NCBI RefSeq assembly: GCF_024138165.1
Contig: NZ_CP100000.1
Span: 3,410,001 to 3,474,000 of the forward strand
Direction: 5' to 3'
Source: Halorussus vallis
GTDB taxonomy: Archaea > Halobacteriota > Halobacteria > Halobacteriales > Haladaptataceae
DNA: 64,000 nt
A program made the position numbers and the translations under genes. Below the pieces are notes generated by a model that was not told where the DNA came from, did no database searches, and worked only from the letters and a program-made list of their open reading frames with translations. Below are positions 19,808-39,453 of this stretch, one piece after another (positions within the stretch are counted from its first letter, which is position 1; each line of letters starts with the position of its first letter).

Positions 19808-21178
19808 ATGGCTACGCACGAGCACGACATCGTCGTCGTCGGCGCCGGGACCGGCGGTTGTTACGCCGCCGCCACCGCCGCCGAAGCGGGCTACGATGTC
19901 GTCGTCGTCGAACGCAAGAGCGAGGAGGAAGCGGGCCACATCGCGTGCGGGGACGCCCTCAAGGGCGCCGACGCGTTCCCCGAGTCGATTCCCAAGTCCC
20001 AGATTCAGTCGGCGTTCACCAACACCGACGTCGACCACGGGCGCTTCGAGATTCCCCAGGAGGACACGGTCCTGGAGATTCCGGTCCCCGGCGAACTCGC
20101 GGTCATCGACCGCTGGGAGTACGGCCGACTCATCATCGAGGGCGCGAAGAAGGCGGGCGCGCAGTTCCACTACGACACGGTCGTCAAGGACGTGACCCAG
20201 CGCCAGGACGGGCGCGTGACCGGCGTCCGGGGCAAGCGCGACGGGAGCGTCCAGCGGTACAACGCCGACGTCGTGGTCGACGCCGCGGGGTCGCTGTCCA
20301 TCCTGCAGGACAAGGCCGACCTCGAGGACGCCACCTTCGACACGAACGTCACCTACTCGCAGTTCTGCTCGGCCTACCGCGAGATCGTCCGGGTCGACGA
20401 ACCGGTCGAGTGGGACGACGCGCTGGTGTTCAAGCCCACCAAGCGCGCCGCGGGCTACCTCTGGTACTTCCCGCGGACCGACACCGAGATCAACGCCGGA
20501 TTGGGTTTCCAGATGAACGAGGAGCCGATGAAACTCGTCGAGGACCTCAAGCGCGACCTCCGCAATCGGCCGGAGTTCCGCGGCGCGAAGGTCGAGGACA
20601 AACTCGGCGCGGCGCTTCCCACCCGGCGGCCATACGACTCGGCGGTCGCCCCCGGATTCATCGCGGTCGGCGACGCCGCGGGCCACGTCAACCCCACCAC
20701 GGGTGGGGGCATCGCCGGCGCGGCCTACGCCGGCAAGTACGCCGCCGAGGCCGCCATCGAGGCCATCGAGGACGGCGACACCGGCGAGGCCAACCTCTGG
20801 GAGTACAACGAGCGCGTGATGGACCACTTCGGCGCGCGCTACGCCGGCCTCGACGTGTACAACGTCTTCTCGACCGCGGTGGACGTCGACGACCTGATGA
20901 GCCTCCTCGCCGCGCTCCCCGCCCAGAAGCTCGCGGAGGCGCTCTACTCGGGCAGCGCCAACATCGGCGCGCTACTCAAGATACAGACCGCCATCAAGTC
21001 GTGGGGTCACTGGGACCTCATCTACGACCTCTACCAGACCAAGCGCAGCGCCGACGACCTCATCGACCACTACGAAACCTACCCGCGTCACCCCGACGGA
21101 CTGGCCGCCTGGCAGAACCGCCGCGACGCCATCATGGACGAGGTCTACGCGACGACCGGGGCCGAGCCTAAGTACTAA
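19808..21178 (+). CDS. Geranylgeranyl reductase family FAD protein
   Basis: A 456-residue flavoprotein. HDIVVVGAGTGGCYAAATAAEAGYDVVVVERK is the FAD-binding Rossmann start, GHIACGDALKGAD is the conserved PxxCGxx-like motif of the family, and GFIAVGDAAGHVNPTTGGGI is the second FAD motif. In haloarchaea these enzymes reduce the isoprenoid double bonds of archaeol lipids or of quinone/retinoid side chains. The true substrate here is not clear because haloarchaea carry several paralogues. The gene has its own TATA-like box. Its stop is followed by a structured repeat element containing a T6 tract. Confidence 0.88.
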   Translation: MATHEHDIVVVGAGTGGCYAAATAAEAGYDVVVVERKSEEEAGHIACGDALKGADAFPESIPKSQIQSAFTNTDVDHGRFEIPQEDTVLEIPVPGELAVIDRWEYGRLIIEGAKKAGAQFHYDTVVKDVTQRQDGRVTGVRGKRDGSVQRYNADVVVDAAGSLSILQDKADLEDATFDTNVTYSQFCSAYREIVRVDEPVEWDDALVFKPTKRAAGYLWYFPRTDTEINAGLGFQMNEEPMKLVEDLKRDLRNRPEFRGAKVEDKLGAALPTRRPYDSAVAPGFIAVGDAAGHVNPTTGGGIAGAAYAGKYAAEAAIEAIEDGDTGEANLWEYNERVMDHFGARYAGLDVYNVFSTAVDVDDLMSLLAALPAQKLAEALYSGSANIGALLKIQTAIKSWGHWDLIYDLYQTKRSADDLIDHYETYPRHPDGLAAWQNRRDAIMDEVYATTGAEPKY

Positions 21179-21183
21179 CACCC

Positions 21184-21315
21184 ACCTTTTTTCGTCGTCG
21201 GGTCGCTGATTCGCCGAAGGCGAATCAGCCACCGCTCCTCGAAAAAATCTGGACCAAAAAAGCACACGCGAGTGAGACGGCCGCGTGATGCGCGGCCGTC
21301 TCACTCGCATCTTCG
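21184..21315. repeat. Structured intergenic element, copy A
   Basis: Reading from the gene stop: ACC-TTTTTT (21187-21192), an 11-bp hairpin GCTGATTCGCC/GGCGAATCAGC (21205-21229), A6 at 21242-21247, A6 at 21256-21261, and an 18-bp hairpin (21268-21285 with 21291-21308). Copies B and C have the same order. It sits three bases after the geranylgeranyl-reductase-type gene. Confidence 0.9.
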
Positions 21316-21414
21316 ACTGCTGGTGCGGGCGCTTCGCGCCCTGCAGGACGTTAGCGAAGATTGCGCGAGCGCGACTCCATCAGACCTTTCCCCCTCTCGT
21401 ACCTCTGTGGCGAT

Positions 21415-22017: not shown

Positions 22018-22140
22018 CGGTCAACCGGGATACGGCGCGGCGTCGAATGAGTCTGGTGGCGACTACGGCCCACAGAATTGCATAGCTCGGCCGGACAATC
22101 CACCAGACAGCGCGCCGGAGGCGCGCGCACCAGAAACCCC

Positions 22141-22270
22141 GAAGATGCGCTCAGGCCGAGTCGCCGTGGCGACTCGGCCTGAGCGCGTGTGCTTTTTTGG
22201 TCCAGATTTTTTCGAGGAGCGGTGGCTGATTCGCCTTCGGCGAATCAGCGACCCGACGACGAAAAAAGGT
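22141..22270. repeat. Structured intergenic element, copy B
   Basis: On the plus strand: GAAGATGC, a 19-bp hairpin (22147-22165 with 22168-22186), T6 at 22193-22198, T6 at 22207-22212, an 11-bp hairpin GCTGATTCGCC/GGCGAATCAGC (22225-22249), then A6 and GGT. It is in opposite orientation to copy A. On the minus strand it follows the PAC2 gene stop within ten bases. Confidence 0.9.
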
Positions 22271-22276
22271 GGGGTC

Positions 22277-23023
22277 CTATTGGAACATCCGGAGCGGCTG
22301 GGCCTGCGAACTCTCGTCGGACTCGGCCTCCTGCATGCGCTGGGCGAGCTGTTCTTTCTGCTCGCTTATCTCCTCGGCCCGGTCGACGAGGTCGTCGGTG
22401 TCGACCTCGATGCCGGTCAGCGGTGCGATGCCCTGTTCGATGAGGATATGGGCCGCCTCCGGGTCGGGGAACTGCGGGTCGCTCTGGACGATGAGTCCGA
22501 GCGCGTCGAGGTCGCGGTCGGCCGCCTCCGAGAGGAGCGCCCCGGTCGGACCGCTGATCGCGCCGCGTTCGTCGGGCGTCCCGACGTCCACCTCGTCGAG
22601 CAACTCGCCCGCCGTCCCGCTGGCGACGCCGTACAGCGACGGAATATCGTCGGGCTGTTTCTGGTGGGGCATACCGCTCATGTAGATGGGCGTGGCCTCC
22701 CGGTCGGCCAGCCAGTCGGTGACGCAGGCGGCGAACTCCGTGGCGGCCGAGGCCGACACCGGCACGTCGCTCTGGAGCGCCAACAGGTCGTTCCGCTCGT
22801 CGGCGTACAGCCTGACCGGCGGTCGGACCTCGCGGTTGTCCTCCTCGTAGACCGAAATCTGGGGGAGCCCCTCGCAGTCGACGCTGGCGAGGTACGTCAT
22901 GTCGAACTGCTCGACCAGGTGGTCGGTGGCGAGTTTGCCGACCAGACCGACGCCCGGCAGCCCTTCGACCATCGTCGGCTCGTCAAGCTCAACGTCCTCG
23001 GCGCGCACGGTGACGGTTGCCAT
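22277..23023 (-). CDS. PAC2 family protein (proteasome assembly chaperone-like)
   Basis: A 248-residue protein starting MATVTVRAEDVELDEPTMVEGLPGVGLVGKLATDHLV, the PAC2 fold signature also seen in eukaryotic proteasome assembly chaperone 2 and in archaeal 3-isopropylmalate-dehydrogenase-like domains. EDDTREVR...VYEEDN and a C-terminal coiled segment EEISEQKEQLAQRMQEAE follow. In archaea it is thought to help proteasome assembly, but this is by analogy. ATG 23023 was chosen; an upstream extension with MRSLAHSVR is unlikely. Confidence 0.85.
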   Translation of the reverse strand: MATVTVRAEDVELDEPTMVEGLPGVGLVGKLATDHLVEQFDMTYLASVDCEGLPQISVYEEDNREVRPPVRLYADERNDLLALQSDVPVSASAATEFAACVTDWLADREATPIYMSGMPHQKQPDDIPSLYGVASGTAGELLDEVDVGTPDERGAISGPTGALLSEAADRDLDALGLIVQSDPQFPDPEAAHILIEQGIAPLTGIEVDTDDLVDRAEEISEQKEQLAQRMQEAESDESSQAQPLRMFQ

Positions 23024-37073: not shown

Positions 37074-37236
37074 GGCGCGCGTTGGCGCGGCCCCGCGGTC
37101 TGTCTTCCGGCGGTTTGGGGCCGCGCCCATTCGCGCGAGGGACGACCGAGTGAGCGCCGGAGGCGCGAGCGAAGGAGTCGGCTGGGGGGGGCGTGTGGCT
37201 ATCGCGGTCGCGGTGCGGTGGCTGTGCAGTAGTCGT
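37074..37236 (-). repeat. Interspersed repeat (CCACACGCC family), copy D3
   Basis: On the plus strand it reads GGCGCGGCCCC (37084-37094) pairing with GGGGCCGCGCC (37117-37127), then CGCGAGGGACGACCGAGTG and TCGGCTGGGGGGGGCGTGTGG (37178-37198). It is the reverse of D1 and D2, with a longer G run (eight G) than the others. Confidence 0.8.
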
Positions 37237-37246
37237 ACCGGTAGTA

Positions 37247-37376
37247 GAAGATGCGCTGAGGCCGAGTCGCCACAGCGACTCGGCCTCAGCGCGTGCCCTT
37301 TTTTGGTCCAGCTTTTTTCGAGGAGTGGTGGCTGACGCGCCTGCGGCGCGTCAGCGACCCGACGACGAAAAAAGGT
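37247..37376. repeat. Structured intergenic element, copy C
   Basis: Same orientation as copy B: GAAGATGC, an 18-bp hairpin (37253-37270 with 37275-37292), T6 at 37299-37304, T6 at 37313-37318, an 11-bp hairpin GCTGACGCGCC/GGCGCGTCAGC (37331-37355), then A6 at 37368-37373 and GGT. The inner stem differs from A/B at two paired positions. Confidence 0.9.
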
Positions 37377-37419
37377 GGAGGGGAAGCTACTTGACGTGTG
37401 CCCGCAATTTTTGCGATAT

Positions 37420-39453
37420 ATGGACACCCTCGAAGACGTAGACGAGATCGTCCACGAACCCAGCCGAGAGTTCGTGGAATCGACCAACGTCTGGCAGTTC
37501 ATGCAGGAACACGGCATCGAGGATTACGAGGAGCTAATCGAGCGGACCACCACGGAGATGCCGGGCGTCGAGGCGTCGGGCGTCGAGTGGTTCTGGGACG
37601 AACTGGTCGACTACCTCGGCATCGAGTTCTACGAGGAGTACGATTCGATCCGGGACGACAGCGAGGGGCCGCAGTTCTCGAAGTGGTACGACGGCGGGAA
37701 GATAAACGCCGCCCACAACGTGGTCGACCGCCACGCCGCGCCCGACAACGAGACTCGCAACAAGGTCGCCTGTATCTGGGAGGGCGAGGACGGCGAGGTC
37801 CGGGAGGTGACGTTCCACGAACTCCACCGTCAGTCGAACAAGGTGGCCAACGCCCTCGAAGCGCGGGGCGTCGGAACCGGCGACACCGTGGGCCTGTACA
37901 TGCCGATGGTGCCGGAGGTCATCGCCATCCTCTACGGCGCGTTCAAGGTCGGCGCCGTCGCCGTCCCCATCTTCTCGGGGTTCGGCGTCGACGCGACCGC
38001 GACCCGCATCGAGGACCCCGAGTGCTCGGTGCTGTTCACCGCCGACGGCTTCTACCGTCGCGGGAGCGAGGTGTTCCTCAAGAACGCCGCCGACAAGGCC
38101 ATCGCGAAGGCGGGCTACGTCGAGCACACCATCGTCTACGACCGGTTCGGGAGTCGTACTCCCGACGGCGACGGTGACGCCGACGCCGACGCCGACATCC
38201 CGTGGGACGACGACCGCGACGAGTGGTGGACCGAGGCGGTCGAGAGCCAGTCCGACGAGTACGAGACGAAGTCGCTCGACGCCGACGCCGAGTCGATGCT
38301 GCTGTACTCCTCGGGGACCACCGGCAAGCCCAAGGGCATCGTCCACACCCACTCGGGCGCGCTGATGCAGGCCGCCAAGGAGATCTACTTCGGCTTCGAC
38401 CACAAGCCCGGCGACCGGTTCTTCTGGGTCAGCGACATCGGGTGGATGATGGGGCCGTGGACGCTCATCGGCAACCACGCCTTCGGCGGCACCGTCTTCA
38501 TGTACGAAGGCGCGCCCGATTATCCCGACCCCGACCGCTTCTGGGAGATGATCGACCGCCACGCCATCTCGACGTTCGGCATCTCGCCGACCGCCATCCG
38601 CGCCCTGCGCAAGTACGGCGACGAGTGGCTGGAGGGTCACGACCTCTCCAGCCTTCGCCTGCTGGGGTCGACCGGTGAGCCGTGGGACCCCGAAAGCTGG
38701 CTGTGGTTCTACGAGAACGTCGGCGGCGGCGAGGCGCCCATCATCAACATCTCCGGCGGCACCGAGATAATGGGCTGTTTCCTGATGCCGTTGCCCATCC
38801 AGTCGCTCAAACCCTGCACGCTGGGCGGGCCGGGCCTGGGCATGGATATCGACATCGTGAACTCGCAGGGCGAGTCCATCGCCGACACCCACGAGCGGGG
38901 CTTCCTGGTCGCCCGCGACTCCTGTCCCTCGATGACCAAGAGCCTCTGGGAGGGCGACGAGCGCTACCTCGAGGAGTACTGGTCGACGTTCGAGGACCCG
39001 CCGCTGTGGGACCACGGCGACTGGGCGCAGAAGGACGAGGACGGTTTCTGGTTCCTCCACGGCCGCGCCGACGACGCCATCAACGTGGCGGGCCGGAAGG
39101 TCGGCCCCGCAGAGGTCGAAGGCGCGCTCATCGACCACGAGGCCGTCAACCAGGCCGCCGCGGTCGGCGTGCCCGACGACACCACCGGCCAGGCCGTCGT
39201 GGCGTACGTCATCCTCGAAGACGGCCGCGCGGTGAGCGACGCGCTTCGGGAGGAACTCCGCGAGCAGGTCGGCGACGAACTCGGCAAGCCGTTCAAGCCC
39301 CGCGAGGTGCTGTTCGTCTCCGAGTTCCCCAAGACCCAGTCGGGCAAGATTATCCGCCGGGCCATCGAGGCGACCTACACCGGCGAGGACCTGGGCGACA
39401 TGAGCAGCATCGAGAACCCCGACGCGCTGGACGAACTCGAAGCGGCGCAGTAG
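37420..39453 (+). CDS. Acyl/acetyl-CoA synthetase (AMP-forming)
   Basis: A 677-residue ANL ligase. MLLYSSGTTGKPKGIVHTHSG is the P-loop, WLWFYENVGGGEAPIINISGGTEIMG the A5-like region, LWDHGDWAQKDEDGFWFLHGRADDAINVAGRKVGPAEVE the hinge, and FPKTQSGKIIRRAI the C-terminal Lys. It activates a carboxylic acid to acyl-CoA; acetate, propionate or a medium-chain acid is possible. Start ATG 37420; an in-frame GTG at 37375 would lie in the repeat element. A DADADAD linker is inserted near residue 250. Confidence 0.92.
   Translation: MDTLEDVDEIVHEPSREFVESTNVWQFMQEHGIEDYEELIERTTTEMPGVEASGVEWFWDELVDYLGIEFYEEYDSIRDDSEGPQFSKWYDGGKINAAHNVVDRHAAPDNETRNKVACIWEGEDGEVREVTFHELHRQSNKVANALEARGVGTGDTVGLYMPMVPEVIAILYGAFKVGAVAVPIFSGFGVDATATRIEDPECSVLFTADGFYRRGSEVFLKNAADKAIAKAGYVEHTIVYDRFGSRTPDGDGDADADADIPWDDDRDEWWTEAVESQSDEYETKSLDADAESMLLYSSGTTGKPKGIVHTHSGALMQAAKEIYFGFDHKPGDRFFWVSDIGWMMGPWTLIGNHAFGGTVFMYEGAPDYPDPDRFWEMIDRHAISTFGISPTAIRALRKYGDEWLEGHDLSSLRLLGSTGEPWDPESWLWFYENVGGGEAPIINISGGTEIMGCFLMPLPIQSLKPCTLGGPGLGMDIDIVNSQGESIADTHERGFLVARDSCPSMTKSLWEGDERYLEEYWSTFEDPPLWDHGDWAQKDEDGFWFLHGRADDAINVAGRKVGPAEVEGALIDHEAVNQAAAVGVPDDTTGQAVVAYVILEDGRAVSDALREELREQVGDELGKPFKPREVLFVSEFPKTQSGKIIRRAIEATYTGEDLGDMSSIENPDALDELEAAQ

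Follow-up and report, generated by a model that had tools for sequence, protein, structure and literature searches.

Three copies (A, B and C) of an intergenic palindromic element lie in the window analysed here, a stretch of 64,000 nucleotides of the Halorussus vallis genome, and they raise the question of what such a structure does between genes and why its pairing is kept. A preliminary description had ascribed to them one order of parts: a long hairpin, two T6 tracts separated by eight nucleotides, a second hairpin and an A6 tract. This order was confirmed in all three copies, and each core motif is present in the window in three exact instances, where dinucleotide shuffles would lead one to expect 0.01 copies of the right-arm motif at ≤3 mismatches. 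Both strands of copy B fold far more stably than dinucleotide shuffles, with z scores of -9.3 and -9.8. The features are as follows, read from the sequence unless another source is given; genes were called by a home-made coding-potential gene finder trained on the window.

21182..21315, minus strand: copy A, whole element (sequence, covariance-model match)
21256-21261, minus strand: copy A, T tract 1
21248-21255, minus strand: copy A, 8-nt spacer
21242-21247, minus strand: copy A, T tract 2
21187-21192, minus strand: copy A, A tract
21182-21186, minus strand: copy A, closing end
21327..21341, minus strand: small hairpin module GGGCGC-GAA-GCGCCC left of copy A, recurring beside many copies
19808..21178, plus strand: FAD-binding oxidoreductase gene, ending 3 nt from the right end of copy A (gene finder, Pfam FAD_binding_3)
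22140..22272, plus strand: copy B, whole element (sequence, model match, alignment)
22147-22186, plus strand: copy B, hairpin 1
22193-22198, plus strand: copy B, T tract 1
22199-22206, plus strand: copy B, 8-nt spacer
22202..22204, plus strand: copy B, spacer triplet CCA, pairing with TGG at 22270-22272 as the closing helix of hairpin 2 (predicted, then tested)
22207-22212, plus strand: copy B, T tract 2
22262-22267, plus strand: copy B, A tract, part of hairpin 2
22268-22272, plus strand: copy B, closing end GGTGG
22110..22126, plus strand: small hairpin module GCGCGCC-GGA-GGCGCGC left of copy B
22277..23023, minus strand: PAC2 family gene, ending 4 nt from the right end of copy B (gene finder, Pfam)
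37246..37378, plus strand: copy C, whole element (sequence, covariance-model match)
37299-37304, plus strand: copy C, T tract 1
37305-37312, plus strand: copy C, 8-nt spacer
37313-37318, plus strand: copy C, T tract 2
37368-37373, plus strand: copy C, A tract
37374-37378, plus strand: copy C, closing end
37134..37199, plus strand: left module of copy C, GAGGGACGACCGAG...GGAGTCGGCTGGGG...GCGTGTGGC, recurring beside many copies
37420..39453, plus strand: acetyl-CoA synthetase-like (AMP-binding) gene, starting 41 nt past the right end of copy C (gene finder, Pfam)

The element is about 130 bp long and has a common anatomy: hairpin 1, T4-7, 8 nt, T4-6, a long imperfect hairpin 2, A4-7 and 5 nt. 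On the plus strand its 5' part reads GAAGATGC - hairpin 1 - GCGTGTCC - T6 - 8 nt - T6, and its 3' part CGAGGAGYGGT - inner stem - ACCCGACGAAG - A6 - GGTGG. Hairpin 1 has 17-20 bp in the window copies and is highly variable in sequence; that of copy A is, as had been claimed, a perfect stem of 18 bp of unrelated sequence, and the exchange of TT/AA for CG/CG in hairpin 2 between A/B and C is also present. The length of 11 bp originally given for the inner hairpin is too short: T tract 2 and the A tract are paired with each other, so that hairpin 2 forms an extended, imperfect rod that includes T6/A6 and ends in a closing triplet. Of the 62 copies parsed from this genome (G000) and a sister species (G017), 61 have a spacer of exactly 8 nt. 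At two loci of G000 (L018, L021) and two of G017 (L177, L181) the left arm of hairpin 2 holds an extra module of 30-55 bp (CACCGTG...GAGCAGAGAGCGGT). A further repeat, GAGGGATGACNGAG-hairpin-GAATCGGCTGGGGAGGCGTGTGGC, is found upstream of the element at 37134-37199 of the window and in the left flanks of many copies of both genomes.

The additional closing helix, in which nucleotides 4-6 of the spacer pair with nucleotides 3-5 past the A tract, was proposed by RNAalifold and then tested. Among 17 distinct combinations 45 of 51 pairs are formed, compared with 36.1 in shuffles, and 0 of 5000 shuffles reach 45. Variants found without the model at orthologous sites form all three pairs in 12 of 12 cases, and the triplet is formed in 19/19 parsed copies of distant families, which were found with a model that does not contain the closing helix but does favour GGTGG. 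Copies collected with a pattern omitting the right end form 70 of 87 closing pairs (47.0 when shuffled); nearly all the misses there belong to a type with a 7-nt spacer, in which, by our own reading of the sequences, the triplet may be displaced by one nucleotide. Eight compensating versions occur: CCA/TGG, CGA/TCG, GTA/TAC, GCA/TGC, GGA/TCC, GAA/TTC, CAA/TTG and CTA/TAG.

The preserved pairing had been taken as the mark of a selected structure. On 25 copies, covariation is far above shuffles: 97.4% of paired cells hold standard pairs, the covariation score is 0.375 (0.115 shuffled), and double changes number 146 compared with 43.6, the copies being related so that these are not independent events. 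Sliding the pairing partner by 1-3 columns destroys the signal. Together with the closing triplet, this strongly supports a maintained structure. Stem positions in two genomes are Watson-Crick in 1,577 of ~1,625 cases, with 19 G.T and 8 A.C, and so few G-U pairs suggest that pairing may matter on both strands or as DNA, or that one arm is sometimes copied from the other. Because the copies exchange sequence and the pairing of their arms is nearly all Watson-Crick, some of the paired change perhaps reflects copying at the DNA level and not selection on RNA, and to this extent the original claim has to be qualified. A and B, 0.9 kb apart and in opposite orientation, are identical over 90 bp (21182-21270 vs 22184-22272), and consequently are not independent witnesses; this identity, with the two copies of the orthologous pair in G017 differing from each other, suggests a recent gene conversion.

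The copies A, B and C belong to a previously undescribed, haloarchaea-wide family of palindromic DNA elements. This genome carries ~35 copies, every one on the 3.96-Mb contig, as found by searching the genome at the DNA level and with a covariance model of 25 copies, and the sister species has 39 model matches. Exact core matches were found in named relatives, namely Halorussus, Haladaptatus and Salinarchaeum species and a Halobacteriales MAG. The covariance model, whose E-values are rough, matches 111 of 293 genomes of the order in 40 of 80 genera; 11 candidates were scored per genome in this run, so that per-genome counts are rough lower bounds, and the raw per-genome match counts (R1) include antisense matches to the palindromes. 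The core pattern matches 190 of 392 haloarchaeal genomes, in 58 of 87 genera, with 0 matches of the reversed control in the genomes listed. Direct-tandem pairs of elements ~157-250 bp apart are seen several times per genome in G266, G210, G281, G251, G385 and G284. An Rfam search gave no family above the gathering score, its weak matches looking like hairpin look-alikes, and literature searches found no description of the element in open-access papers. A viral origin was rejected: the core pattern matches 85 IMG/VR stretches, and the right arm with the closing end is present in 0 of the 80 viral loci checked.

Individual sites are also shared. Orthologues of the genes at A and B are present in 18 of 18 genomes of the genus; in G017, where these proteins are 76-86% identical, both sites carry elements, and other members have, at the same place, related variants with T4 or T5 tracts, or no element. 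G000 and G017 both have an element at site C, where G002 has a different variant and most others have none. Overall, 8 of 27 sites are common to this genome and G017.

The element is placed at gene boundaries. A gene pointing towards the element has its stop codon 0-25 nt from the element's right end in 38 of 41 cases, and within 5 nt in 25; of the remaining 22 cases, 16 have the right end 39-48 nt ahead of the start codon of a gene pointing away. Haloarchaeal promoters are usually leaderless, and if those concerned are, these copies would sit immediately before the BRE/TATA region. Among copies from other families, some have their right ends beside the 3' ends of tRNA-Gly, tRNA-Pro and tRNA-Val genes read towards the element. 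The left end stands at variable distance from genes, with further repeated modules alongside. In 400 kb of this genome, T5+ occurs on the sense strand within 60 nt of 25 of 269 gene ends, compared with 2 with A5+, and in 0 of 65 operon-like gaps; a C follows in 19 of the 25. In Haloferax volcanii, such a T stretch with a following C is the motif of intergenic termination (PMC7237163). The element bears T6C facing outwards on both strands, and its CCACCT6C lies 3-10 nt past stop codons.

On balance we incline to the view that these are palindromic, bidirectional terminator or boundary cassettes that also spread. Their T4-6 tracts, usually one of them followed by C, face outwards on both strands, around and within the two hairpins, so that a polymerase arriving from either side would meet a T tract. 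At a stop codon the transcript would be ended within ~15 nt and entry from the opposite side blocked; just upstream of BRE/TATA, the promoter would be shielded from upstream transcription. Hairpin 2 is the long imperfect rod described above, its base closed by the covarying triplet beyond the T/A tracts. Copies are inherited in place over long times, swap sequence within a genome, and are occasionally acquired by further gene ends together with a duplication of 30-150 nt of the host gene. Placement, the sense-strand T5+ bias, T tracts on both strands, the 8-nt spacing, the covariation and the shared sites all support the terminator reading, and the other variants held by relatives at sites A, B and C count for a boundary cassette.

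The two-way termination already put forward in the preliminary description is plausible, since T5+ marks gene ends and T6C adjoins stop codons on both strands; termination and promoter shielding in vivo are deduced from placement and motif. Termination does not account for everything. Half of the copies in the sister species are upstream of promoters, and the nine that lie between divergent genes in G017, where no gene ends, count against it because no gene there needs terminating. Archaeal T-tract termination has no hairpin requirement. Since hairpins are not required, and hairpin 2 comes after a T tract in both directions, termination alone leaves the structural constraint unexplained. Elements are also gained and lost, some of them with duplicated gene ends, which the original reading did not include.

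Known systems resemble the element in part. Like the T-stretch terminators of Haloferax volcanii, some of which have hairpins upstream (PMC7237163), it has a run of T with a following C shortly after stop codons; it differs in being a conserved palindrome with T tracts on each strand, a spacer fixed at 8 nt between two T tracts and a closing triplet that covaries, and in occurring upstream of promoters as well. The PATEs of Haloquadratum are, like the element, short, palindromic, transposase-free, dispersed in haloarchaeal genomes and without terminal inverted repeats; they make no target duplication and have ends resembling the IS605 type (PMC3119063). The element differs from PATEs in two respects: no IS200/IS605-related ends were found near the Y1 genes tested, and repeats of 27-150 bp flank 17 of 118 copies. 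REP, BIME and REPIN sequences (PMC3733652, PMC3116915) are likewise intergenic, palindromic, multi-copy and often downstream of genes, whereas the element is much longer, has T tracts and an architecture fixed across an order, and seems to be without a consistent Y1 (RAYT-type) transposase.

Bacterial bidirectional intrinsic terminators are palindromes with A/T tracts able to serve two convergent genes, and the element shares the palindrome and the tracts. Its hairpin 2 has the order T-hairpin-A on both strands instead of the bacterial A-hairpin-T, so that the polymerase meets the T tract first, and a terminator of the bacterial type was rejected on this polarity; the bacterial order is found only in hairpin 1 with T tract 1.

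The strongest rival holds that the element is mainly a selfish, non-autonomous, mobile palindromic repeat, for which gene ends and the sequences upstream of promoters are safe or preferred places and termination is a side effect. Its case rests on gain and loss. Comparison of left and right flanks of 118 copies found the direct repeats around 17 of them. In all of these except one (G017, 2899306), what is repeated is chiefly the terminal part of the left-hand gene, or its flank, and the right-hand repeat starts ≤7 nt from the right end of the element. No flanking duplications were found around the G000 copies. At gatB in one genus, ~9 of 30 species have one or two elements and ~20 have none, and the elements differ among species in spacer type and duplication length. 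The sequence at L337 is that found downstream in element-free relatives, with an element and a duplicate of the gatB end added; L327 resembles a scar, and at L324 two elements with different spacer types share one site. Tandem copies also favour selfish spread. At one duplicated site in two species, copies are 121-122/126 identical within a genome and 108/126 between species, which indicates conversion or repeated duplication. Direct copies of ~30-150 bp of the left gene's end stand directly right of the element at L304-L316, L300, L301, L303, L050 and L296, and these are more alike within a genome than between species.

Presence and absence with duplicated gene ends fit selfish spread equally well, and so count against the boundary cassette. 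Sites and structure are kept over large divergence, however, and T-tract and spacer constraints persist with compensatory closing triplets in old copies, neither of which favours a mainly selfish repeat. Nor was a candidate enzyme found. The reverse transcriptase domain RVT_1 is present in 0 of 13 carrier genomes (its control was positive), which rules against a reverse-transcribed, SINE-like origin. Y1_Tnp occurs in nine of the 13, with 1-5 matches each (RAYT and other subfamilies counted together), and is absent from four; an IS200/IS605 origin was rejected, as the few loci tested near Y1 genes of G000, G017 and G030 showed no element-like ends. Tandem duplication of gene end plus element fits L300 and L325 but is probably not the sole source of the flanking duplications, as L324 and L337 favour insertion. 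We regard a mainly selfish repeat as unlikely, and selfish spread and function are not mutually exclusive. With somewhat more conviction, and still tentatively, we entertain a new class of archaeal mobile element, transposase-free and defined by structure, that would insert at gene 3' ends, supply a two-way terminator and sometimes a new C-terminus, and leave a gene-end duplication of 30-150 bp from its own hairpin base, by a machinery that would differ from a resident reverse transcriptase and, in several carriers, from a Y1 transposase too.

It seems improbable that the element is a structured non-coding or 3'-UTR RNA made from the plus strand, with tandem G.A mismatches and the closing triplet as a protein or ligand site. 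The mismatched arms of hairpin 2, GAGGAGYGGT/ACCCGACGA, are conserved and allow G.A pairs on the plus strand only, and the slight excess of G.T over A.C (19 vs 8) points the same way; against this, G-U pairs are very few overall, the internal T tracts would stop the element's own transcription, there is no Rfam match, no consistent promoter or gene function came to light, and fully complementary arms exist too. The latter are found at L006 (1500-1631) and L023 (1500-1632), where the left arm is the exact complement of the right, replacing the mismatched CGAGGAG arm, in what looks like arm-to-arm correction. A DNA palindrome kept mainly by template-switch correction or by gene conversion of arms and copies, under little functional selection, would account for these two copies, for the near absence of one-sided changes and for the identity of A and B beside a differing sister-species pair, but is very improbable, as it predicts neither the fixed 8-nt spacing, the conserved mismatched arms and T/A tracts, nor the placement at gene boundaries.

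If the boundary-cassette reading is true, much of the haloarchaea has in common a strongly covarying gene-boundary element that annotation has missed, whose core pattern and covariance model are ready for use in annotation. The family would allow comparative study of how the limits of archaeal transcription units are set, and its appearance at gene ends with long duplications would pose a new question of mobility and give a hint at how terminators originate in compact genomes.
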